Part shown: in pieces, positions 32,402-46,570 of the stretch
Layout: each line of letters begins with the position of its first letter
Numbering within the stretch: the stretch's first letter is position 1
Assembly (NCBI GenBank): GCA_029560585.1
Contig: JAKQKQ010000261.1
Location: 1 to 64,000 of the forward strand
Length of the DNA: 64,000 nucleotides
DNA from: Verrucomicrobiota bacterium
GTDB taxonomy: Bacteria > Verrucomicrobiota > Verrucomicrobiia > JADLBR01
Direction of reading: 5' to 3'
Program-made: the position numbers and the translations under genes
Notes under the pieces: model-generated
The model's database searches: none
Told to the model about the DNA's origin: nothing
The model's input: the letters and a program-made list of their open reading frames with translations, nothing else

Positions 32402-33607
32402 TCAGAATTGGAGGCTCGGGGGGCGATTGGGGCTAAGCTTGAGGGAACGGCGGGGAGACGCGGCGCGGAGTTTTGCGACCAAAGCCGGGAGGGTCTCTGC
32501 GGTGCGATCGATTTCGGCATCCGTGGTGTAACCGGAGAGGGAGAACCGGATCGAGGCGCGCGCGGCGGGGGAGTCGAGGCCCATGGCGGTCAGGACGTGG
32601 GAGGGTTCGAGCGAACCTGTCGTGCAGGCGGAACCGGACGAGGCGCAGATGCCGTGGCGGTCGAGTTCCAGGAGGAGCGACTCGGCCTCGATATGGGCAA
32701 AGCTGATATTCGAGGTGTTTGGGAGACGGCGCTGGCGGTCGCCGTTGACGCGGGTGCCGGGGATGCTCGCGAGGATCGCGTCCTCGAGTTTATCGCGGAG
32801 GCGGCAGACGCGGGCCCGTCGGTCGGCCAGCCCTTCCATGGCGAGTTCGGCGGCCCGACCGAGGCCCACGATGGATGCCGTATTCTCGGTGCCGCCGCGC
32901 CGACCTTTCTCCTGACCACCGCCCAGGATATGGCTGGCGAAGCGCGTCCCTTTGCGCACGAACAGGATGCCGACGCCCTTTGGGGCGTGAAACTTGTGGC
33001 CCGAAAACGACGCGAGATCCACGTTGGCGCGCGCGAGGTCGACGGGCGCCTTGCCGAGCGCCTGGACCGCGTCGGTGTGGAAAAGGACCCCCTTCGACCT
33101 GCAGATATCGGCGATTTCATCGATGGGGAAGAGCACGCCGGTCTCGTTATTGGCCCACATGGCGGAGACGATCGCGGTCGTCGGGCCGATGGCACGCTCG
33201 ACCGCCGACATATCCAGCAGGCCGCCGGGATCGACATCGAGCCAAGTGACGGGGTGGCCAGATCGTTCGAGCGCGGCGCAGTGCCTCGTGATGGCGGAGT
33301 GCTCCACGCGCGTGGTCACGATGTGTTGGCGCCCGCTGGTGCGAATGGCGGAATTGATGGCCGCGTTGTCAGACTCGGTGCCGCAGCCCGTGAAGACGAT
33401 CTCGGCCGGATCGCATCCGAGGAGCGCCGCGACGCGCTCTCGCGCGGCGTCGATGGCCCGGCCGACCTGCGCGCCGAAGGTGTACACGCTGGAGGGATTG
33501 CCGTAGAACTCGGTGAGGAAAGGCACCATGGCCTCGAACACCTCTGGGGCGACCCGCGTCGTGGCATTGTTGTCGAGATAGATGATGTCGCGGGGCCGCG
33601 TTTCCAT
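32402..33607 (-). CDS. Cysteine desulfurase (NifS/IscS family)
   Basis: 401 residues. Takes sulfur from cysteine for Fe-S clusters or other thio-cofactors. Seen: IIYLDNNATT near the start, GCGTESDNAAIN, VEHSAI, PLP Lys in SFSGHKFHAPKG, and the persulfide Cys in ASSGSACTTGSLEPSHVL. The consensus length and the SGSACTTG loop place it with NifS/IscS group I. ATG 33607 (METRPRDIIYLD) preferred; the frame extends to 33646. Divergent from the glycosyltransferase operon. Confidence 0.93.
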   Translation of the reverse strand: METRPRDIIYLDNNATTRVAPEVFEAMVPFLTEFYGNPSSVYTFGAQVGRAIDAARERVAALLGCDPAEIVFTGCGTESDNAAINSAIRTSGRQHIVTTRVEHSAITRHCAALERSGHPVTWLDVDPGGLLDMSAVERAIGPTTAIVSAMWANNETGVLFPIDEIADICRSKGVLFHTDAVQALGKAPVDLARANVDLASFSGHKFHAPKGVGILFVRKGTRFASHILGGGQEKGRRGGTENTASIVGLGRAAELAMEGLADRRARVCRLRDKLEDAILASIPGTRVNGDRQRRLPNTSNISFAHIEAESLLLELDRHGICASSGSACTTGSLEPSHVLTAMGLDSPAARASIRFSLSGYTTDAEIDRTAETLPALVAKLRAASPRRSLKLSPNRPPSLQF

Positions 33608-33702
33608 GGCGTGACAAATGATTCGCGAATCGATTTGGAGCAGCACAGGCTACGCCCGCTTGGCCGAGAAGCAAGTTTGCCGATGATGAGAGAGTCAGAC
33701 AG

Positions 33703-34866
33703 ATGAAGATCTGCGACGTGACGCAGTTCTATTCCCCGTACGGCGGTGGCGTGCGGCGGTACATCGCCGAGAAGCAGGCCTACGTGCGCGCGCGCGGGGA
33801 CCACGAGCACGTGCTGTTGATCCCGGGCCTGCGGGACGAGTGCACGATGGAGGGGCCGTGCAAGGTACACACGATCCGCTCGCCACGGCTGGACCGGACG
33901 TCGCGGTACCGGCTGCTGTTGCGGGTGGGGGCGGTGCGGGAGATCCTGCGGCGAGAGCGGCCCGATGTGATCGAGGCCGGGGATCCCTATCACGTGGCAT
34001 GGGCGGCATGGATGGAGGCTTGTTCGCTGAAGATTCCGGTGGTCGGTTTCTACCACAGCCATTTTCCCGACGCCTATCTGAGGACGGTGAAGAAGTACTG
34101 CGGCGGTTTGGTTCACGATTTCGTGCAGGATTATGCGAAGGCGTACATCGAGAGGCTCTATGGGCGTCTGAGCCGGACGCTGGTGCCGTCGCCGCACCTG
34201 CGGGAACTGCTGGCGTCGTGGGGCGTGGGGAACACCGTAGTGGTGCGGCTCGGCGTGGATACGACCGTTTTCCGACCTGGCGACCGGGATCTGGGGATGC
34301 GAGGGCGGCTGGGCGTGCCCGAGGGCAGGATCTGCCTGCTATTCGTGGGACGCTTGGCGCACGAGAAGGGGGTGGGAACGCTGCTCGATGCTTTCAGGCG
34401 GCTGCACGCTGAAGAGCGGGGCCGTTTCCACCTGCTTGTCGTGGGGCAGGGGCCGCTGAGGAGGGATGTGGAGGCGGTGGCCCGAGAGACCGGCGCGGTG
34501 GGCTGGACCGACAATTTTCAGGATTCGGGGGAACTCGCGCGCGTGTACCGGGCGGCGGACATCTTCGTGCACCCGGGCGTGCTGGAGACCTTCGGGCTGG
34601 TGACGGTGGAGGCACAGGCGTGCGGCCTGCCGGTGGTTGGGATCCGGGGCAGCTACATGGATCGGTTGGCTTTCTGCGGGATCGAGCGGTGGGCGGAGGA
34701 GAACTCCCCGGCGGCGCTTGCGGCGGCGGTGCGGGCATTGGCCGGGGGGCCGCGGGATGAGGTCGGGGCGCTCGTTGCGGAGGCTGCCGCGGCCTACGCG
34801 TGGCCAAAGGTATTTGAGGAATTGTTTGCCGTGTATCGGCAGGTGTGCGACGAAAGAGGCCAGTGA
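33703..34866 (+). CDS. GT4 glycosyltransferase
   Basis: 387 residues, GT-B fold. N-terminal acceptor loop QFYSPYGGGVRRY, then FVGRLAHEKGVGTLLDAF and the donor-binding Glu pair in HPGVLETFGLVTVEAQACG. Probably uses a nucleotide sugar to glycosylate a lipid or oligosaccharide. First of four overlapping genes; its stop overlaps the next start by four bases (GTGA). Confidence 0.9.
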   Translation: MKICDVTQFYSPYGGGVRRYIAEKQAYVRARGDHEHVLLIPGLRDECTMEGPCKVHTIRSPRLDRTSRYRLLLRVGAVREILRRERPDVIEAGDPYHVAWAAWMEACSLKIPVVGFYHSHFPDAYLRTVKKYCGGLVHDFVQDYAKAYIERLYGRLSRTLVPSPHLRELLASWGVGNTVVVRLGVDTTVFRPGDRDLGMRGRLGVPEGRICLLFVGRLAHEKGVGTLLDAFRRLHAEERGRFHLLVVGQGPLRRDVEAVARETGAVGWTDNFQDSGELARVYRAADIFVHPGVLETFGLVTVEAQACGLPVVGIRGSYMDRLAFCGIERWAEENSPAALAAAVRALAGGPRDEVGALVAEAAAAYAWPKVFEELFAVYRQVCDERGQ

Positions 34867-35609
34867 GCACGGATACGAAGGCTACGGGCGGCGCGGCGCG
34901 CTGGTGCGTGCGCCCTTACGAGGCGGGTGATCGGGAGGCGGCCCGGAGGATCTGTTGCGAGACGGGATTCCTCGGTGAACCGATCGACCCGATTTTCGAG
35001 GATCGCGAGGTGTTCGCGGACATCCTGACGGCATATTACACGGACCGGGAGCCGGAATCCTGTTTCGTGGTGGAACGGGACGGCGAGGTCCGGGGCTACC
35101 TGATGGGTTCGAGGCACCACGCCCGACGCCGGCGCTTTGGTCTGGCGCACGGGGTCCGCGTGGCGGCCCACGCCCTTTGGCGTTGTTTCACGCGGCCATA
35201 CGGGAGGGACTCGCGCCGTTTCCTCTGGTGGGTGGTGACGCGCTCGTGGCGGGAGGTGCCAGAGGCGCCGAAAGGCGTGCCGCATTTCCACATCAACCTG
35301 CTCAAAGACGTGCGCGGCGTCGGGGAGACGCGCGACCTCATAGATCGGTTCCTGGAATACTTACGGGGCTGTGGTGAGAAGCAGGTCTACGGGCAGATGG
35401 TGGTATTCGACGACCGGCGGGGGGAACGCATGTTCGCGCGGTATGGTTTCCGGGTGGTGAATCGGGGCGAGGTCACGAAGTTTCGGCGCTTTCATGCGGG
35501 CCAGGTATTCCTCTTCACCGTGATCAAGGACATCGGGGCCAACACGCGGCTCTACGGCAGGGATCTATGGCGCGAGAAAGAGAACCATGGGACGTCGCAA
35601 CGCTGCTGA
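34863..35609 (+). CDS. GNAT family N-acetyltransferase
   Basis: 248 residues; GTG start within the GTGA overlap with the glycosyltransferase. N-terminal RPYEAGDREAARRIC is the first GNAT strand and helix, with SCFVVERDGEVRGYLMG as strands 2-4. A central insert HARRRRFGLAHGVRVA is Arg/His-rich and followed by HFHINLLKDVRGVG, the acetyl-CoA loop; RMFARYGFRVV is the last motif. May N- or O-acylate the glycoconjugate made by its neighbours. Confidence 0.85.
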   Translation: MSTDTKATGGAARWCVRPYEAGDREAARRICCETGFLGEPIDPIFEDREVFADILTAYYTDREPESCFVVERDGEVRGYLMGSRHHARRRRFGLAHGVRVAAHALWRCFTRPYGRDSRRFLWWVVTRSWREVPEAPKGVPHFHINLLKDVRGVGETRDLIDRFLEYLRGCGEKQVYGQMVVFDDRRGERMFARYGFRVVNRGEVTKFRRFHAGQVFLFTVIKDIGANTRLYGRDLWREKENHGTSQRC

Positions 35610-36372
35610 GGCCCGTGAGTCCGACAGGCTGCTGGTGGTGAGCCTGCACGATGTCCACGCGGGTTCTCTTGCGGCCGTCCGGGAACAGGTGGACGCGCTG
35701 GGCGCGATCGGGGTTTCGAGGTTCAGCCTTCTGGTGGTGCCGGATTTCCACGCCGGTGGGCGGGTTGGTGCGGACCCCGCCCTGTGCGAGTGGTTGCGGG
35801 GGCGGGCGGCGCTTGGCGACGAGATCGTACTCCACGGCTATCATCACTTGAGGCTCGGGAGGCGGGACTCATGGAGGACGGCGTTCTGGACAAGGTTTTA
35901 CACTCGAAACGAGGCGGAGTTCCTGGATCTGGGCCGGGATGAGGCGCGGGAGCTGTTGTGCCGGGGGCGTGACGCGCTGGCCGAGGTGCAACTCTCGGCG
36001 CGAGGGTTCATTGCGCCTGGGTGGCTGATGGGCCGAGATGCGCTGGCGGCGATATTCGAGGAGGGGTTCGCGTACACCAACACCGTGTCTTGCCTGATAA
36101 CGGCGGATCGGCGGAGGGAACCGTCGCGCTCATGGTGCTGGTCCTCAAGGGCGGTCTGGCGGCGGGTGGCGTCAGTGCGGTGGAACCGCGCCATAGCGGC
36201 TCGGGTGCTGCGGCAGCGCGTGGCGCGCCTGAGCCTCCACCCCAACGATCTTTACTTTCCCCGTTTGCGGGAGCAGATAATTCATCTAGCCCACCGCGCG
36301 CTGGATTCTGGAAGGCGGCCGACGACCTACGCGGAGGCCTGCGCGCTGGCGGCGAGAGAAACAGAGGCCTGA
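35587..36372 (+). CDS. DUF2334 polysaccharide-deacetylase-like protein
   Basis: 261 residues; the His-Asp motif in VVSLHDVHAGS, LLVVPDFHAGG, and DEIVLHGYHH with the metal His residues identify the NodB-like DUF2334 group. RGFIAPGWLMG and the last SLHPNDLYFPRL motif complete the barrel. Starts 23 bases before the GNAT stop and its own stop shares a base with the next ATG (TGATG). Confidence 0.88.
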   Translation: MGRRNAAEARESDRLLVVSLHDVHAGSLAAVREQVDALGAIGVSRFSLLVVPDFHAGGRVGADPALCEWLRGRAALGDEIVLHGYHHLRLGRRDSWRTAFWTRFYTRNEAEFLDLGRDEARELLCRGRDALAEVQLSARGFIAPGWLMGRDALAAIFEEGFAYTNTVSCLITADRRREPSRSWCWSSRAVWRRVASVRWNRAIAARVLRQRVARLSLHPNDLYFPRLREQIIHLAHRALDSGRRPTTYAEACALAARETEA

Positions 36373-38744
36373 TGTCCCGCTGCGACCTGCACGTGCTCTC
36401 GAGGTACTCGAAGAGGCCTCCGGAGTGGATCCTGCGCAGGCTCGGCGTGCCCGAGAGCTACACATCCCCCGACGACATCTATCGGAGGGCACGCGCCTCG
36501 GGCATGGATTTCGTCACCATCACCGACCGGGATTCGATTCAGGGTGCGCTTTCGATCGCGGATAGGCCCGGCGCGTTTGTCAGCGCCAAGGTGACCACCA
36601 TGTTCCCGGATGGCGCGCGCGCGATGATCCTGGTCTGGGGTCTCGACGAGGGGCAATTCCGGGAGATCGAAGACGCGCGGCGGGATATCTTCGCGCTGCG
36701 GCAATACCTTCACGACCGGGGGCTGGCGCACGGCGTGGCACATCCGCTCCACGGCGAGGACGGGCGGTTGAGCATCGAGCATTTCGAGAAGCTGCTGCTG
36801 CTATTTGAGGTCTTTGAGGCGTGCAACGGACTGCGGAGTCCGCTGGCCGACGCGGTGCTGCGGCTGTGCGTTCGGTCGCTGACCCCCGAGGCGATGGCCC
36901 GGCTGGCCGACAGGCACGGGATCGATCCGATCGGCGAGACGCCATGGCGCAAGTCGCTATTTGGCGGGAGCGAGGATCGCGGGGGGCTCTTCATAGCCCG
37001 GGCCTATACCGAGGCGCCACCGGCCGAGGACTTTCGGGGGTTTCTTTCGCACGTCATGGCGGGTCGGGCGGCGCAGGCGGGGGAGGGTGGGGCACCGCAG
37101 GTCATGGCCTCGGGCGTGTACAGCACTTTCTATCACTACATCAAGGAGCACATCGGGACGACCTCGCCGCTCTACTCAGTGATGCTGAGCAAGGTGGCGG
37201 AGAGGTTCCTCGCGGGGCGCAATCCGGCCGAGTTTTCGTTCGGCGATCAGGTGGAGATCGTGGGCGAGGCGGTATGGTCCGGCGAACTGTTCTCCATCCT
37301 TACCCCGGGTGCCTCGATTCCCCGGAGCCTGGCCGGTTTCTTCAGCCATCCGGCGCTCAAGCGGCGCATCGACTCGGTGCTTGCGGAGGAACCGACCGTC
37401 GAGCGCAGATCTTTCCGCGTCGCCTGCGAGATCGGCAACTATCTCGGGTTCCGGTTTTTTGAGGAGATGGTGCGACAGGTCACGGCCGGCGATTTTCTCG
37501 GGAGCCTGCAGTCGGCCAGCGCGCTGGTGCCGGTGGCGGTCAGCGTGATGCCGTACTTCGCGGCATTTCTTTCGCTGAATGCGGACCGCAAGCTGCTGGA
37601 GCGGGTCTCGGAATCCCTCCTGCCAGAGGTGCCTGCCGCGCTCCAGAACCGGAAGCGGGCATGGCTCACGGACACGCTCGAAGACGTCAACGGCGTGGCC
37701 CGCACGATCCGGACGATGGTGGCGGCGGCGCGCGCCCAGGGGTTCGACCTGACGGTGGTGACATCGCGGTCCGAGGTGACCCAGGGAGATATCCCGATAC
37801 GGAATTTCGCGCCCGTGGGCGAGTTCGAGCTGCCCGAGTACAAGCTGCAGAAACTGAGTTTTCCGCCGATCCTGGAGATGCTCGACTACATCCACAGGGA
37901 GGGTTTCACCGAACTGATCATCAGCACGCCTGGGCCAGTGGGCCTCGTGGGTCTCGCGGCGGCAAAGATGTTTGGACTGCCGAGCAGCGGGATCTACCAT
38001 ACCGATTTTCCGCAGTACGTGAAGATCCTGAGCGACGACCACGGGATGGAGACGCTGACGTGGAATTACATGCACTGGTTTTACGACCAGATGGACACGA
38101 TCTACTCCAATTCCCGCTATTACCGCGACCTCTGGGTGAACCGCGGGATATCGGCGTCCAAGCTCCAGATCTTTCCGAGGGGATTGGACACAGACCTGTT
38201 CGACCGGCGCCACCGCGACACGGCGTTTTGGTCGGCGCGCGGGGCGCGCGGCAAGGTGCTCCTGTACGTGGGCCGGATATCAAAGGAAAAAGACTTGGAT
38301 ATGTTGCCCGACGTGGCGCGGGTGCTTGCCGAACGTGGGGCGGGGGTGACGTGGGCGTTCGTCGGAGAGGGGCCGTACCGCGAGGAACTGGCTCTCAGGA
38401 TGCCCGGCGCGATCTTCACGGGCGTGCTCACGGGCGCAGAGCTTGGAAAAGCCTATGCGTCCTCGGACCTGTTCGTGTTTCCCAGCACGACTGACACCTA
38501 TGGCAACGTCATCGTGGAGGCCTGCGCGGCGGGCCTGCGAGTCGTGGTCTCCGACGCCGGGGGGCCGAAGGAACTCGTCCGGTCGGGAGTGCCGGGGATC
38601 GTCTGTCCTGCGCGTTCTGTCAAGGCATTCGCCGACGCGATCCAGTCGCTGCTGGTGCAGCCGGCGGGATTCGAGCGGCCGAACCTCTCCAACCTGATGG
38701 GGTGGGATTCGGCGGCGCGGCGCTTTTGGAACAAGGAGCCGTGA
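36372..38744 (+). CDS. PHP-domain/GT4 glycosyltransferase fusion
   Basis: 790 residues. Residues 1-~260 form a PHP-type phosphoesterase domain: CDLHVLSRYSKRP, GMDFVTITDRDSIQGAL, GVAHPLHGEDGRL. Two metal ligands expected from the family (HxH and TDHD) are Leu9 and Arg53 here, so the domain may be inactive. A ~150-residue linker follows. From about 450 on is a GT4 glycosyltransferase: GIYHTDFPQY, YVGRISKEKDLDML, and PSTTDTYGNVIVEACAAG with the donor Glu. Fourth gene of the overlapping operon. Probable role in glycolipid or surface glycan assembly. Confidence 0.85.
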   Translation: MSRCDLHVLSRYSKRPPEWILRRLGVPESYTSPDDIYRRARASGMDFVTITDRDSIQGALSIADRPGAFVSAKVTTMFPDGARAMILVWGLDEGQFREIEDARRDIFALRQYLHDRGLAHGVAHPLHGEDGRLSIEHFEKLLLLFEVFEACNGLRSPLADAVLRLCVRSLTPEAMARLADRHGIDPIGETPWRKSLFGGSEDRGGLFIARAYTEAPPAEDFRGFLSHVMAGRAAQAGEGGAPQVMASGVYSTFYHYIKEHIGTTSPLYSVMLSKVAERFLAGRNPAEFSFGDQVEIVGEAVWSGELFSILTPGASIPRSLAGFFSHPALKRRIDSVLAEEPTVERRSFRVACEIGNYLGFRFFEEMVRQVTAGDFLGSLQSASALVPVAVSVMPYFAAFLSLNADRKLLERVSESLLPEVPAALQNRKRAWLTDTLEDVNGVARTIRTMVAAARAQGFDLTVVTSRSEVTQGDIPIRNFAPVGEFELPEYKLQKLSFPPILEMLDYIHREGFTELIISTPGPVGLVGLAAAKMFGLPSSGIYHTDFPQYVKILSDDHGMETLTWNYMHWFYDQMDTIYSNSRYYRDLWVNRGISASKLQIFPRGLDTDLFDRRHRDTAFWSARGARGKVLLYVGRISKEKDLDMLPDVARVLAERGAGVTWAFVGEGPYREELALRMPGAIFTGVLTGAELGKAYASSDLFVFPSTTDTYGNVIVEACAAGLRVVVSDAGGPKELVRSGVPGIVCPARSVKAFADAIQSLLVQPAGFERPNLSNLMGWDSAARRFWNKEP

Positions 38745-38854
38745 GCCGGGCCGTGGCGAAAGGGAGATGGGCGTGCCCGATATTCTCGAGGTGGCCTCGC
38801 GCGCGTATTGACTTTGGCAGGCCGTAACCTATCGTGGCTCTGGAAGAAAAGATT

Positions 38855-39349
38855 ATGCGTTTCCCACTGCCCTCCAGACCGATTTTCCGCCTTTCGGTGA
38901 CTGCCTTGGTGGCGATCTGTTTCGTGTCGCCGGACGCGTACGGCCAGGCGCGTGGCGGGGGTAGGGTTTCTGCCACCGAGGGCGGGAACCGTGCCTCGGG
39001 CGGCGGGGGTCTGCAAAGCATTGCGACGAATCAGGCGCAGGCCGGCGGTGGCTTGGCGGTGGGGGAAGGAGCAGCCGCGGGGGGAGGCGGGGCTCTGTCC
39101 GTGGGCGAGGCTTCTACCGCGGGCGGGGGAGGCGGTCTGGCGGTAAAAGGCAAAGGGGCGATGGGTGGGGCCGGCTCTGGCGGCGATCTGCTCCGCGACG
39201 AAGCCAGGTCGACGAAGGGCGGCGGGATCGCCGCGGCAGAAGAGGGAAGTTTCGTGCGCAGCATGTCCACGTGGGTGCCCATCATCGGCGCAGTTGCGCT
39301 GGCGTTGACCGCGTGGTTTCTGCGATATATGAAAGGAAAAGGCGTATGA
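38855..39349 (+). CDS. Gly-rich secreted protein with C-terminal membrane helix
   Basis: 164 residues: signal peptide (IFRLSVTALVAICFVSPDAYG), a low-complexity centre with imperfect tandem units (AGGGLAVGEGAAA, GGGGALSVGEASTA, GGGGGLAVKGKGA), and a single membrane helix (STWVPIIGAVALALTAWFL) before a short basic tail. ATG 38855 has GGAAG upstream. Its stop overlaps the pseudopilin start (ATGA). Function not recognised; the coupling suggests a part of a type II secretion or pilus-like assembly. Confidence 0.75.
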   Translation: MRFPLPSRPIFRLSVTALVAICFVSPDAYGQARGGGRVSATEGGNRASGGGGLQSIATNQAQAGGGLAVGEGAAAGGGGALSVGEASTAGGGGGLAVKGKGAMGGAGSGGDLLRDEARSTKGGGIAAAEEGSFVRSMSTWVPIIGAVALALTAWFLRYMKGKGV

Positions 39350-40559: not shown

Positions 40560-40671
40560 CGCCAGCAGCGTCCACATGGCCGAGATGGCCATGCCACTCA
40601 TGTGAACAGTATTGGGGCTAGCCTGGGGAGAATCCTCGCGATTCAATGGGGGGCAGGGTAGAGTTCTGGCG

Positions 40672-42195
40672 ATGGGCGACTCAGAGGGTGCCGTTTCGGC
40701 GGTCGAGGATCAGTTTGATCGTTGGCGGAGGCGGGTGGGGCTGGTCCTGGCGCCGGTGGTGTTCGGGGTGTTGTGGTTTGTACCTGTGGAGGGGATGTCG
40801 GGCGAGGCGCACCGGCTGCTTTCGGTTTTTGGTCTGGTGATCTGGCTGTGGCTAACCGAGGCGATCCCGCTTGCGGTCACGGCACTAATGGGGCCGGCGC
40901 TTTGCGTGGTGTTCGGTGTCTGTTCCGAGAAGGAGGCATTCCGGGGTTTTGGTAATCCGATCCTTTTCTTGTTCATGGGGAGTTTCATGTTGGCCCAGGC
41001 CATGATGCATCACGGTTTGAATCACCGGATTGCCATGGTCATCCTCCGTTTGCCGTGGGTGGGGCGGTCCCCCGGGCGGATCGTGGCGGCCTTCGCGCTC
41101 ATCGTCTGTGGCCTTTCGATGTGGATCTCGAACACGAGCGCGACCGCGATGATGTTTCCGGTGGCGATGGCGATCCTCTCCGAGATGGCGCGCCGGCGGT
41201 CGGAGCAACTGGGGCGGCCTGTCGCGGTGGCCGACCTGCGGTATGGGATCGGCCTGATGCTGGCGACGGCATTTGCGGCGTCGATCGGGGGAATGGCGAC
41301 ACCGGTTGGCTCCCCACCAAATCTCATAGGCCTGGGCCTCATCGAGCAGGGCGTTGGCGCGAAGATCGGGTTTTTTCAATGGATGGCGTTTGGGGTGCCG
41401 TTGTCTCTTGCGCTGGCGGGATTCCTGATTGTGTATTTGAATTGGACTTGCCCGGCAGAAGGTGGCCTCTTGGGCGGGGTGCTGCAGGGCGTGGTGACCG
41501 AAGTTAAGGAGCCACTCAGCCGGGGGGCAAAGAACGTTCTTTTGGCTTTCGGTGCGACGGTGGTGCTCTGGCTGATGCCGGGGATTATCACGGCCACCGT
41601 GGGAGCAAGTTCGCCGGCGGCTGCCTGGTTGAGTGGGCATGTGCCCGAGAGCGTGGCGGCGCTCGTCGGGGCGGCTTTGCTCTTTGTGCTGCCGGTGGAT
41701 TGGCGGCGCGGTGAATTCACCCTGAGCTGGCGCGAGGCGCGGCGGATCGAGTGGGGCACCATCCTCTTTTTCGGAGGCGGGCTTTCGATGGGTGAGATGA
41801 TGTTTTCCACGGGACTGGCCAAATGGATGGGCGAGGGGATAGCCTCGGCATTGCCCGCGCATACCGAATTGGGACTGGTGGCGGTTTTCGCGGTCGTTGG
41901 ACTCGCGCTGACCGAGGTAACGTCAAACACCGCTGCGGCAGCGATGGTGGTGCCGATCGCGATTGCCGTCGCGCAGGCGGCGGGGGTCGACCCCATGCCC
42001 TGCGCGCTGGCCGCGACACTGTCCGCGTCCCTGGCGTTCATGCTGCCGATTTCGACGCCCCCGAATGCGATTGTTTACGGCTCGGGCTGTGTTCCGATTC
42101 TCAAGATGGTTCGCCACGGGGTGGTGCTGGATGCGGTGGCGGTCGTGCTGGTGGTAGCGGTCGTTCACTGGGCGGTACCGTTGGTCCTGGGGTGA
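40672..42195 (+). CDS. DASS/SLC13-type sodium/anion symporter
   Basis: 507 residues with about 12 membrane helices. Divalent anion:Na+ symporter signatures: IAFASIGG-like segment GGMATPVGSPPNLIGLG, and the second SNT repeat EVTSNTAAAAMVVPI, plus ISTPPNAIVYGSG. Transports dicarboxylates or sulfate. Near several sulfatases, so sulfate or organic anion handling is possible; not decided by sequence. ATG 40672 (MGDSEGAVSAVEDQ) preferred over a GTG-region start at 40612. Confidence 0.88.
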   Translation: MGDSEGAVSAVEDQFDRWRRRVGLVLAPVVFGVLWFVPVEGMSGEAHRLLSVFGLVIWLWLTEAIPLAVTALMGPALCVVFGVCSEKEAFRGFGNPILFLFMGSFMLAQAMMHHGLNHRIAMVILRLPWVGRSPGRIVAAFALIVCGLSMWISNTSATAMMFPVAMAILSEMARRRSEQLGRPVAVADLRYGIGLMLATAFAASIGGMATPVGSPPNLIGLGLIEQGVGAKIGFFQWMAFGVPLSLALAGFLIVYLNWTCPAEGGLLGGVLQGVVTEVKEPLSRGAKNVLLAFGATVVLWLMPGIITATVGASSPAAAWLSGHVPESVAALVGAALLFVLPVDWRRGEFTLSWREARRIEWGTILFFGGGLSMGEMMFSTGLAKWMGEGIASALPAHTELGLVAVFAVVGLALTEVTSNTAAAAMVVPIAIAVAQAAGVDPMPCALAATLSASLAFMLPISTPPNAIVYGSGCVPILKMVRHGVVLDAVAVVLVVAVVHWAVPLVLG

Positions 42196-42341
42196 CGCCC
42201 CTGGGAAGAGTTGGGAGGGATCCTTGCTGCCGGGCACCATGGCGTCGCACGGGCGCGAGTCGCTGTGGGCCTGCCCGATGGAGGCGGCTTTACGGGGCAT
42301 GTGATCTCGCGCTAAGATAGCGACACACAAAGGAGAGAACC

Positions 42342-43943
42342 GTGCATTTCTTTGAACATCTGGCGATGGGGTTTCTGGTTGTCTGTGCCGCTGGCGGGGC
42401 GAGGGCGGATCGCCCGAATCTCGTACTTATCTTGGCCGATGATCTGGGCTATGGCGACGTGCATGCGTGCAACCCTGAGGGCAAGATCCCGACGCCCAAC
42501 ATGGATCGGCTCGCGAAGGAGGGGGTGCTGTTCACCGACGCGCATTCGGGGTCCGCTGTCTGCACGCCGACACGCTACGGCATCGTGACGGGGCGATACT
42601 GCTGGAGGTCCAGACTTCAGAACGGCGTCTTGGGGGGCCTGAGCCCGCGGCTCATCGAGCCCGGACGCACGACCGTCGCGGAATTCCTCAAGGGGCAAGG
42701 TTATCGCACGGCATGCATTGGGAAATGGCACCTGGGGATGGATTGGGTGAAAGTCGAGGGCAAGCACGTGTCCGAGTTGAGCATCGAGAAACCGGACGAG
42801 GTCTGGAGCGTCGATTTTACCAAACCGATCGCGAACGGGCCGACCACCGTGGGCTTCGAGTACTATTTTGGCATCAGCGCCTCGCTCGACATGGTGCCGT
42901 ACACCTTCATCGAAAACGATCGCGTGACGGCCGTCCCCTCGAGGGATGCGGATTTTCCTATGACGGGGGGCATCGGGGGCAAACGGACGCGTAAGGGTCC
43001 GGCCGCGGAAGGGTTTGACGCTGTGGACGTGCTGCCGACGTTGCAGAAGAAGGCGGTTGAATACATCGGTGACCGGGCGGCCGACGCCAAGGCGGGGAAG
43101 CCATTCTTCCTGTATCTTCCCCTTTCATCGCCGCACACGCCGATCGTGCCTTCGGTGGAATGGCAGGGGAAGAGCGGGTTGAGCCCCTATGCGGATTTCG
43201 TGATGCAGACAGATGCGGCCGTGGGTGCCGTGCTCGGGGCGCTGGATCGATGCGGGATCGCGCGCGACACCGTGGTGGTCATGACAAGCGATAACGGATG
43301 TTCGCCCTCGGCGAATTTTGACGAGCTGATCGCGAGGGGCCACAACCCGAGCTATGTATTCCGAGGCCACAAGGCCGATATTTTCGATGGTGGGCATCGC
43401 ATCCCGCTGATCGTGCGCTGGCCCGCGCGAGCCAGGGCGGGCGTGACATCGGGGCAGCTGGTGTGCCTCACGGATTTCATGGGGACCTGCGCGGATATCC
43501 TTGGCGCGAAGCTTCCCGAGGGTGCCGGCGAAGACAGTTTCAGTTTTTTGCGCGAGTTGACCGGTTTGGGCGATGGACCGAAGCGCGAATCAATCGTGCA
43601 CCATTCGATCAATGGCTCATTTGCGATCCGCGAGGGCAAGTGGAAGCTGGAGTTGTGCCCGGGTTCCGGCGGCTGGAGCCCGCCGCGGCCCGGCAAGGAC
43701 GACGCGAGCCAGATGCCCCTGGTGCAGTTGTATGACATGACGGCGGACGTCGGGGAGCGTAGCAATGCGCAGGCGGATCATCCGGAGATCGTTAGGCGGC
43801 TGACCCGGCAGTTGGAGAAGCTGGTGGCCGATGGGCGGAGCACCCCAGGCGCCCAGCAGAAGAACACCGTCGATGTCGACATCTGGAAAGCGGGCAAGGA
43901 CGCGCACGCGCCGATTCCCGCCAGGAAAGGGAAGAAGAAGTGA
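42342..43943 (+). CDS. Secreted type I sulfatase
   Basis: 533 residues. AAGGAG lies at 42331-42336 before the GTG start; the first 22 residues are a signal peptide. Core: [17 protein letters not shown], Cys74 in CTPTRYGIVTG (formylglycine site), GKWHLGMDW, and VMTSDNGCSPSAN. Large insert 120-220. First of three sulfatases in the 42-55 kb region. Confidence 0.93.
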   Translation: MHFFEHLAMGFLVVCAAGGARADRPNLVLILADDLGYGDVHACNPEGKIPTPNMDRLAKEGVLFTDAHSGSAVCTPTRYGIVTGRYCWRSRLQNGVLGGLSPRLIEPGRTTVAEFLKGQGYRTACIGKWHLGMDWVKVEGKHVSELSIEKPDEVWSVDFTKPIANGPTTVGFEYYFGISASLDMVPYTFIENDRVTAVPSRDADFPMTGGIGGKRTRKGPAAEGFDAVDVLPTLQKKAVEYIGDRAADAKAGKPFFLYLPLSSPHTPIVPSVEWQGKSGLSPYADFVMQTDAAVGAVLGALDRCGIARDTVVVMTSDNGCSPSANFDELIARGHNPSYVFRGHKADIFDGGHRIPLIVRWPARARAGVTSGQLVCLTDFMGTCADILGAKLPEGAGEDSFSFLRELTGLGDGPKRESIVHHSINGSFAIREGKWKLELCPGSGGWSPPRPGKDDASQMPLVQLYDMTADVGERSNAQADHPEIVRRLTRQLEKLVADGRSTPGAQQKNTVDVDIWKAGKDAHAPIPARKGKKK

Positions 43944-43964
43944 GGCGTTTGGGTGGGGGGAGGT

Positions 43965-44010
43965 TAGCCTGTATATTTCACACCCTGCCGGCTGTGAAAT
44001 ACCCGGATTA
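43965..44010. repeat. Imperfect palindrome of the AGCC..ATATTTCAC family
   Basis: TAGCCTGTATATTTCACA opposite TGTGAAATACCCGGATTA with a 10-base loop; the inner nine bases pair perfectly. Sits between the convergent sulfatase and TIM-barrel genes. A REP-like fragment GGGCTCCTAC follows near 44028. Confidence 0.6.
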
Positions 44011-44035
44011 GGCGAAGTCGTCGTCGGGCGGGCTC

Positions 44036-44929
44036 CTACGAGCCAACTCGAGCCTGAACTTGAATCGTCTCGAAAGCCTTTGGGAGCTGATCCATTTCCC
44101 ACTTGCCCTCGACGCTGAGGCGATCGGCGTAGCCGGTGCCACGCAGAGCGGCAAAGAACGGGCGGAAGTCGTCGCCATGCACGCCGGGGGCGGTCCGGCC
44201 ATCCTTCTCGGCAATGTGCATATGGCGCAGGAGTGGGGCGACCCTGCGGAGATCCTCTGGCGATTCGCCGTTGCAGAGGAGGTGGTAGAGGTCGGCGAGA
44301 AGGCGGATGTTTGGGTGATTCACCTGTTCGACGAACCATGCGCCGTCCAGGACCGTGTTGATGAAGTTGTCCTCTTCCCGGCGCAATGGTTCGACGACGA
44401 TCACGACGTCATGCTGGCCGGCGAGGGGCGCGAGTCGCCGGAGCAAGTCGACGAACTGGGCTTTGGCCTGGTCTTTCGAGAATCCATCGGGGAGTTTTCT
44501 AGAGCCGCTGCTGCCGAAGACGATGCGATCGACGCCCACTTGTTTGGCGCGGCGAAAGGCGATCTCGGCCCATTTCAATATGGCATCGTGATGTATTGTG
44601 CCGCCGGTGCTGCGGAGATTGCCGGGCAGGAAGCCATTGCACGCGGCCACGGGCAATGGCGAAGCCTTCGCCGCTGCGAGGTTTTTGTCCCAGGCGGAAT
44701 CGGGTTTGTCCGGTATCAGGAAGCCGGTGACGGAAGGCTCGATGTACTGTCCGCCGGCCGCCTTCACCGCCACCGCCTTGTCCGGGGTGGTGCAGACACC
44801 GATGGAGTGAAAAAGCGGTGCCGCGGAGTCGGCGGCATTGAGGAATTCGGAGGAGCGCCCGCCAATCCATCCGAGGGCGGTGCCCGCGGCAAGTTTTTTG
44901 AGGAAGGCGCGACGGTGAAGCATACTCAT
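44036..44929 (-). CDS. Tat-exported sugar phosphate isomerase/epimerase-like TIM barrel
   Basis: 297 residues, starting MSMLHRRAFLKKLAAGTALGW, a Tat signal. TIM-barrel (AP-endonuclease 2/xylose-isomerase-like) metal ligands in VIVVEPLRREEDNFIN, LLADLYHLLCNGES, HMHIAEKDGR, and LSVEGKWE. In PVC genomes many such proteins are exported isomerases or epimerases of unknown sugar. The upstream frame to 44965 is not required. Confidence 0.85.
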   Translation of the reverse strand: MSMLHRRAFLKKLAAGTALGWIGGRSSEFLNAADSAAPLFHSIGVCTTPDKAVAVKAAGGQYIEPSVTGFLIPDKPDSAWDKNLAAAKASPLPVAACNGFLPGNLRSTGGTIHHDAILKWAEIAFRRAKQVGVDRIVFGSSGSRKLPDGFSKDQAKAQFVDLLRRLAPLAGQHDVVIVVEPLRREEDNFINTVLDGAWFVEQVNHPNIRLLADLYHLLCNGESPEDLRRVAPLLRHMHIAEKDGRTAPGVHGDDFRPFFAALRGTGYADRLSVEGKWEMDQLPKAFETIQVQARVGS

Positions 44930-45021
44930 GGGTAATCTGGTATGCCCCAGATAACCGGAGGTCAATCTTTCCGTGGCGGGGACATTGACCGATCCGACAA
45001 AGTAAACCGCTTGCGCCCCGG

Positions 45022-46479
45022 CTACTTACCGGCGCGCGTTTTGGCCCCGAGCTTGAACGCCGACTGGCTGCGCAATCTGAAAGGCGGCGGTGAATCGGGG
45101 GGCAGCGACCGGAGGAGGGAGGTGAGTCGCTCGCGCGCGGCAATCGCATCTGGCGCGGCGCTCCCGACGAGGTTGCACTTCTCTTCGGGGTCGGTGGTGA
45201 CGTCGAAGAACTCGCCGGTGGAATAGAGTTTGAAACGCACATCACGAACGACGCGCGTGGCGGCGTACTGATTCAGTATCCAATCGCGAGGGGGCCTCGC
45301 GCCGGGTTCCCCGAGCAGCACCGGGGCGTGGGAGAGGCCATCAAGAACGAGGTTGCCCGGCCGCGGCACTCCGGCGATATCGCAGACGGTGGGATACATG
45401 TCGGTGAAGTCGGAGAGGGGGATCGTCCGCCCGCCTGGGATTATTCGGGGGCAGTTGACCAGGAGCCCGACGTCGCTCCCGGCCTCGGTGAGTTGATAGA
45501 GGGCGCCGGTCACGCTGCGGCCACTGCGGCGCGCCACCATGCTGCTCTCGGTGCCGTTGTCCGTTGCCACGAAGATGACGGTGCGCTCGCGGATGCCGAG
45601 CGAGTCGAGCGCCCGCACGAGTTGGCCGATGAGCCGGTCTGCGTACCGGACCATGTCGGCGTACATCGCCTGCCGTGGGCGATCGGCGCTCCTGTTGAGC
45701 GGCGTTGGAACGGCAGGTTCGGTGAACGTCTTGCCGTGGGTGAGGACCATCGGGTAGTAGAGCAGGAACGGCCGGTGGCCGTGGCGCCGCACGAAATCGA
45801 GTGCGGCCTCCTGCATGACGTCGGGACCAAATTTGCCCTCGTGTCGTTCGCGGCGACCATCGCGTATCAGGACGGGATCCCAGTAGCGGCTTTCGATCTG
45901 GCGGAGGAAGGGCCCGGTCTCCTCGGCGGATTCCGCGCGGACGGCGGCCAGGAATCTCTCGTACTCGGGAGGTGGCACTTTGTCGCGATCGATCTCGCCA
46001 GGCCAGACGACGTGCTCATCAAAGCCATGCTGGCGGAGAACGTCGGGCTCTTCTGAGAGCTTGTTGATCTGCCATTTGCCGACGATGCCGGTGGCGTAGC
46101 CGGCATCCCGCAGGAGCCGCGGCCAGATGATCTCCCTTTTCGGGTCCAGTCCTCCGCCGCCATAGAGCGCCGCATCGTGGTGCATTGAGAAGCCGGTTCG
46201 GAACGGATACCTTCCGGTTAACAGCATGATCCGGCTGGGACCGCAAACCGGGGCGGCGTAGCAATGCTCGAACCGGACTCCTTCGCGGGCGAGCCGGTCG
46301 ATCTCCGGCGTGCATCTCTCCTCGCTGCCGTAGCAGCCGAGCCATTCCTGCCCGCAATTGTCCAGCAGGATGAAAACGACGTTGGGCCGCTGGGTGCTGG
46401 CGGCATCGCCGGCGGGTGCCGAGAACAAGAGGGGGGCACACCCAAGCGCCCCGACCAGACCGATCAACGCAGATTTCAA
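45022..46479 (-). CDS. Secreted sulfatase with variant metal motif
   Basis: 485 residues from a TTG start (MKSALIGLVGALGCAPLLFS, signal peptide) that has AGAGGG upstream; the frame runs to 46566. Core NVVFILLDNCGQEWLGCYG differs from the usual ADD: the second Asp is Asn. Cys79 in CGPSRIMLLTG is the formylglycine site. GKWQINKL and FVATDNGTESSM are the other anchors. Divergent from the gene at 46571. May have altered metal binding or substrate. Confidence 0.85.
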   Translation of the reverse strand: MKSALIGLVGALGCAPLLFSAPAGDAASTQRPNVVFILLDNCGQEWLGCYGSEERCTPEIDRLAREGVRFEHCYAAPVCGPSRIMLLTGRYPFRTGFSMHHDAALYGGGGLDPKREIIWPRLLRDAGYATGIVGKWQINKLSEEPDVLRQHGFDEHVVWPGEIDRDKVPPPEYERFLAAVRAESAEETGPFLRQIESRYWDPVLIRDGRRERHEGKFGPDVMQEAALDFVRRHGHRPFLLYYPMVLTHGKTFTEPAVPTPLNRSADRPRQAMYADMVRYADRLIGQLVRALDSLGIRERTVIFVATDNGTESSMVARRSGRSVTGALYQLTEAGSDVGLLVNCPRIIPGGRTIPLSDFTDMYPTVCDIAGVPRPGNLVLDGLSHAPVLLGEPGARPPRDWILNQYAATRVVRDVRFKLYSTGEFFDVTTDPEEKCNLVGSAAPDAIAARERLTSLLRSLPPDSPPPFRLRSQSAFKLGAKTRAGK

Positions 46480-46570
46480 TTGCCCTCTTCCAGGTGACGT
46501 TGCGGCGCTGGCGTAGGAGAAGCAACAAAACTGTTGTTGCCATATCCCTGGGGTTTCAGATAGCAAAGGT

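Follow-up and report, generated by a model that had tools for sequence, protein, structure and literature searches.

A four-gene operon of Verrucomicrobiota probably directs the synthesis of an aminosugar-modified membrane phospholipid

In Pseudomonas aeruginosa the glycosyltransferase GpgS makes GlcNAc-PG, which the deacetylase GpgD converts to GlcN-PG (PMC12713373). The hexSDF genes of Clostridioides difficile, which are responsible for an aminohexosyl-hexosyl-diradylglycerol, proceed similarly: an N-acetylhexose is placed onto a lipid and then deacetylated, and a flippase is encoded as well (PMC10128005). The four-gene locus described here resembles both systems. As in gpgSDF, a GT4 glycosyltransferase and a DUF2334-type deacetylase are encoded together, and two Verrucomicrobiota relatives also have a flippase-family gene (PF03706) between them. 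Unlike gpgSDF, our locus adds a GNAT-fold protein and a PHP-GT4 fusion, its operon is devoid of a flippase gene and its sequences score below the equivalog cut-offs. The disparities with hexSDF are of another kind: HexS is annotated as an MGDG-synthase-type enzyme acting on a neutral glycolipid, and neither a GNAT nor a PHP-GT4 is reported in that operon. The third point of comparison is the group of O-GlcNAcase HAT-like GNATs, i.e. SsAT (4bmh), OgpAT (3zj0) and the human OGA pseudo-HAT. They share with the GNAT-fold protein of the locus a fold with an insertion between strands 3 and 4, and the catalytic-site His of OgpAT is conserved in its clade. However, these GNATs act alone or within an O-GlcNAcase, whereas the clade studied here is linked or fused to a lipid-type GT4 and a deacetylase, and has an eroded P-loop in most members.

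The locus lies in the stretch of 64,000 nucleotides analysed here (hereafter the window), from a genome of 7.06 Mb in 336 contigs. The overlaps of 4, 23 and 1 bases given for the four genes in the preliminary description were confirmed from the ORFs (Table 1). The GNAT and DUF2334 frames share 23 nt, and the junction between DUF2334 and PHP-GT4 reads TGATG, a 1-nt overlap. The longest GNAT ORF begins at a GTG at 34845 and would overlap the GT4 by 22 nt; the start is most likely the GTG at 34863, which gives the 4-nt overlap. Scanning for promoters and terminators was uninformative. As for the surroundings, a NifS-type cysteine desulfurase (32402-33646, minus strand; 558 bits, above the cut-off) is divergent from the operon, with 56 bases between them. 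Just downstream (38834-39349) is a predicted secreted, glycine-rich protein of 171 aa that belongs to no Pfam family, and further on (40612-46566) a transporter of the Sodium:sulfate symporter family, then two sulfatases flanking a xylose-isomerase-like TIM-barrel gene.

Table 1. Genes, domains and sites of the four-gene operon (window positions).
Feature	Position	Strand	Remarks
GT4 glycosyltransferase, GpgS-like	33703..34866	+	ORF; NCBIfam/Pfam match; E295-x7-E303 motif intact
GNAT-fold protein, O-GlcNAcase HAT-like group	34863..35609	+	GTG start; 4-nt overlap with the GT4 stop
GNAT His143 codon	35289..35291	+	Equivalent to OgpAT His135, the proposed catalytic base; invariant in 31/31
GNAT P-loop position	35313..35330	+	RGVGET in place of [QR]xxGx[GA]
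DUF2334 deacetylase, GpgD-like	35587..36372	+	D22, H83 and H87 conserved, likely metal-site residues
PHP-GT4 fusion, 790 aa	36372..38744	+	
PHP domain, residues 1-240	36372..37091	+	Degenerate: DLHVL, TDRD, SAK, GSEDR
Helical linker, residues 241-424	37092..37643	+	Lower model confidence
GT-B (GT4) domain, residues 425-790	37644..38741	+	D708-x7-E716 motif

The GT4 (Pfam match 8e-26) finds its best NCBIfam model in GlcN_PG_synth, the GpgS model (NF053787), with 284 bits, the next being MshA with 82 bits. The GpgS model is also the only one common to the 23 aligned GT4 members, all of which match it. The curated equivalog cut-off is 480 bits; the window GT4 fails it, and the best member (E = 2.1e-96) also corresponds to well below this value, so that none reaches it. 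A Marinobacter protein from the plasmid collection, used as positive control, obtains 598 bits and is thus a certified GpgS, with no gpgD alongside. In the tree this protein and the window GT4 fall in one clade (support 93/97) of 20 rows, whose inner order is unresolved and which is free of PHP-GT4 rows and of other GT4 rows. Outside this clade lie the fusion's GT domain and two further GT4s encoded in the window genome. When that genome was searched for GpgS matches the operon GT4 was the best by far, followed by the PHP-GT4 fusion (100 bits). A single clade proper to the Verrucomicrobiota GT4s was rejected (AU p 1.4e-5); the rejected group took in a row from G271, a genome without the GT4-GNAT-DUF2334 trio, which joins Skermanella, and we draw no conclusion from this rejection. 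A second GpgS-like copy, about 42% identical to that of the window, occurs outside the cluster in G034 and G018 (loci L098 and L099), and also in G026 and G050.

The DUF2334 protein (Pfam match 1e-21) behaves in the same way. Its best NCBIfam model is GlcNAc_PG_deac, the GpgD model (NF053788), with 176 bits for a curated equivalog cut-off of 280, and this model is matched by all 17 DUF2334 members, the best at E 8.3e-61, below the cut-off. H21, D22, H83, H87 and H218 are invariant in the 17 sequences, which all carry the active-site D and HxxxH. Searching PDB sequences with this protein returned nothing useful. Judged by their sequences, the GT4 and the DUF2334 enzyme are therefore relatives of GpgS and GpgD, not certified members. 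Because both stand far below the equivalog cut-offs, the acceptor or the sugar may differ. The core of the set nevertheless matches a known pathway type, that of gpgSDF and glucosaminyl-phosphatidylglycerol (PMC12713373), contrary to the initial opinion that the product was not obvious from known pathways, and homology points to phosphatidylglycerol as acceptor instead of the diacylglycerol suggested at that stage.

Regarding export, the preliminary description noted that no transporter gene is included. This is true of the window, whose operon contains no flippase gene of the PF03706 type, but not of all relatives: such a gene lies between GT4 and DUF2334 in G194 and G267, whose loci also include GNAT and PHP-GT4. 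The match to PF03706 is at 7.5e-34 for the G267 copy, with which that of G194 clusters. PF03706 is the Pfam family of the membrane region of lysyl-PG synthase (MprF). Two further PF03706 genes exist elsewhere in the window genome, unlinked to the operon. A search of 57 relatives with the G267 flippase gave no homologue at E <= 1e-5, and the PF03706 family was used instead: it is present in 21 of the 22 relatives carrying any of the four genes and in 17 of the 35 others (p 2e-4, uncorrected for shared ancestry). In L137 (G194) and L138 (G267) two predicted small-protein families, of about 230 and 320 aa and with no firm Pfam match, adjoin GNAT/PHP-GT4; the larger is also found in L139 and the smaller in L149.

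That the four genes act together, as first proposed, is supported by their linkage, their co-occurrence and two kinds of gene fusion. Far from being separate and unlinked in all relatives, they are adjacent in six relative genomes, all of one family (G011, G018, G026, G034, G050 and G056), and in nine named loci (L024, L025, L031, L032, L040, L043, L061, L065 and L081; in L061 and L081 the contig ends inside PHP-GT4), and the order GT4-GNAT-DUF2334-PHP-GT4 of the window is kept in all of them. Elsewhere the set is often split into GT4+GNAT and DUF2334+PHP-GT4 pairs (e.g. G013, G014 and G044), and PHP-GT4 adjoins DUF2334 in most loci. All four genes, even if unlinked, are present in 16 of the 22 carriers among the 57 relatives; of the six exceptions, G003 lacks GNAT only and the other five have assemblies that are fragmented or incomplete. 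Pairwise Fisher tests give p <= 7e-10, shared ancestry being uncorrected. Sought more widely, the four-gene set recurs across the phylum, which argues against chance. Strong GNAT matches (E < 1e-40) were obtained in 16 of 289 phylum genomes; the same 16 have GT4 and DUF2334, and 15 of them PHP-GT4. At the genus level GNAT and DUF2334 overlap in 12 of 153 genera (hypergeometric p 6e-17, ancestry uncorrected). The protein distances of the four correlate (r 0.71-0.91), as expected if they were inherited together, a correlation to which species history alone contributes. About 19 of the 289 genomes have PHP-GT4 without the trio; given this occurrence and the frequent splitting of the modules, PHP-GT4 may serve a separate role.

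The fusions associate the first three genes. In G178 (L136:8354-10465) GT4 and GNAT form a single open frame of 703 codons, followed by DUF2334; PHP-GT4 is absent. G178 is the sole genome listed in its family with strong matches to GT4, GNAT and DUF2334. The other fusion occurs in a subdivision-6-type group, where a single open frame encodes GNAT and DUF2334 at each of the 11 loci; contig ends cut two of these.

The GNAT assignment is marginal in Pfam (17.7 bits for a cut-off of 20.7). The protein nevertheless matches the solved GNAT 4bmh both as a sequence (E 9e-14) and as a profile (E 9.5e-23), and its AlphaFold model (pLDDT 81) matches GNAT folds, again with 4bmh at the top (E 1.2e-11). The acetyl-CoA P-loop, defined as [QR]xxGx[GA] (PMC3814719), is strictly present in only 6 of the 31 GNATs of the clade, the window protein being among those that fail. 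OgpAT lost its binding of acetyl-CoA when residues of its P-loop were replaced by those of the human protein (PMC3814719). A relaxed form, [RQ]G...G, is found in all seven of the more distant GNAT paralogues. Conversely, Q178, R186 and K206 are invariant in the 31 clade members and not conserved in the paralogues. The erosion of the P-loop in most members makes acetylation doubtful; together with the invariance of His143, Q178, R186 and K206, it suggests that the acceptor side has been kept while the CoA side has been relaxed. Two readings remain: the protein may have changed its acyl donor (some GNAT-fold enzymes, e.g. FeeM and OlsB, employ acyl-ACP), or it may be a pseudo-enzyme holding the substrate for its fusion partners. 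Thus, from the acylated, de-N-acetylated glycolipid initially proposed we probably retain the de-N-acetylated glycolipid, and its acylation is unproven. The insertion helices of the protein are basic, but their amphipathicity is not significant and we therefore make no claim of membrane binding.

In the fusion protein the GT4 domain is clear (Pfam match 3e-29) and forms its own clade in the tree (100/100). Pfam did not detect PHP in the window protein; in 44 members of the family it found PHP_C in 16 and PHP in 2, and the assignment comes from these matches together with the aligned PHP motifs. The PHP half also gave nothing useful in a search of PDB sequences. In the model (pLDDT 86) the N-terminal residues 1-240 form a confidently predicted domain, followed by a helical linker and then by a GT-B domain; the best solved matches of the latter are the UDP-GlcNAc enzymes BshA and MshA, such GT4 matches being generic. 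Eight PHP ligand positions (DxHxH, TDH, E, HxxxH, DDH) were counted: all are kept in 52 of 89 aligned relatives, and only four in the window protein and in L003. The latter, a metagenome-assembled Verrucomicrobiia bacterium, is the nearest named relative (PHP-GT4 87% identical); its DUF2334 runs past the contig end, so the absence of GT4 and GNAT there is uninformative. With four ligand positions lost, PHP activity is probably gone in the window genus, the GT motif being intact. The patterns of ligand loss vary by lineage (TDDD, AQC, PSF; e.g. L060, L066, L069, L070, L074 and L077). The alignment suggests a repeated decay of the PHP half across lineages, the GT half persisting. The G050 gene (C1:336587-338964) consists of two overlapping ORFs, split near residue 237 at the PHP/linker border, by fission or frameshift. 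A search of public genomes with PHP-GT4 returned 325 matching stretches, of which the best 80 are nearly all from Verrucomicrobiota, and a plasmid collection contained none; a Novosphingobium deacetylase and GT set from that collection does not match the four-gene set.

These data bear on what the genes make. GT4 and DUF2334 alone could produce plain GlcN-PG, the GNAT being a non-catalytic partner and PHP-GT4 serving another product. The scarcity of strict P-loops in the clade, the effect of P-loop loss in the homologue OgpAT (PMC3814719) and the many genomes with PHP-GT4 and no trio agree with this proposal, but the four invariant GNAT residues suggest retained chemistry, and the near-constant presence of PHP-GT4 in trio genomes, usually beside DUF2334, also argues against it; we consider it unlikely. 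An exopolysaccharide or a polyprenyl-carried glycan, in place of a free membrane lipid, appears quite unlikely. Both glycosyltransferases are GT4s weakly matching several polysaccharide GT4 models, and DUF2334 falls in the polysaccharide-deacetylase superfamily. However, the best models are lipid enzymes, and no polymerase, Wzx, initiating transferase or carrier gene is seen in the window operon or conserved nearby in relatives. Finally, the product could be a soluble glucosamine compound of small size, for example a low-molecular-weight thiol akin to mycothiol or bacillithiol; this is very improbable. In its favour, mycothiol synthesis relies on the same three enzyme types (GT4, deacetylase and GNAT), the GT4 has MshA as its second-best family, a cysteine desulfurase is divergent upstream and thioredoxin reductase or thioredoxin genes lie near the set in some relatives. 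Against it, the window GT4 scores 200 bits higher with GpgS than with MshA, GpgS is the sole model matched by all GT4 members, the deacetylase is a DUF2334 matching the GpgD model and not of the LmbE type, the operon lacks a cysteine ligase and the redox neighbours vary between lineages.

We therefore favour, with reasonable though limited confidence and from sequence comparison, a single operon for an aminosugar-modified membrane phospholipid, i.e. a GlcN-phospholipid pathway extended by two steps. Support is good for the operon and for the type of pathway; which lipid is made, what the GNAT does and whether a second sugar is added are inferred as follows. By homology, the GT4 would move GlcNAc, probably from UDP-GlcNAc, onto phosphatidylglycerol or a close relative, and the DUF2334 enzyme would strip the N-acetyl group to leave a cationic glucosamine head. 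Co-occurrence and fusions would place the GNAT-fold protein at the GT4/deacetylase step, where it may acylate the freed amine, possibly from a donor other than acetyl-CoA, or may assist both enzymes as a pseudo-acetyltransferase. A second sugar would then be attached by the GT4 half of the fusion; the PHP half probably remains a catalyst in relatives with the full ligand set and has probably been reduced to a structural part in the window genus. Flipping would fall to a distinct protein of the PF03706 family, whose gene lies elsewhere in this genome. Since the four genes travel together across many relatives, the two extra proteins probably belong to the pathway.

The core is thus known, and the new part is the four-gene set with GNAT and PHP-GT4, of which we found no report in the literature on PHP-GT4 fusions, DUF2334 function and Verrucomicrobia aminoglycolipids. 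A more specific version, which we hold as tentative and rather doubtful, is a phospholipid whose glucosaminyl amine would be acylated by a GNAT independent of acetyl-CoA (e.g. acyl-ACP-dependent) and which would receive a second sugar from PHP-GT4; if true, this would be a previously undescribed phospholipid. Co-occurrence and fusions tie two uncharacterised families, the GNAT clade and the PHP-GT4 fusion, to the just-described glucosaminyl-phospholipid pathway, and provide a concrete prediction on the membranes of the Verrucomicrobiota, a widespread and little-cultured phylum.
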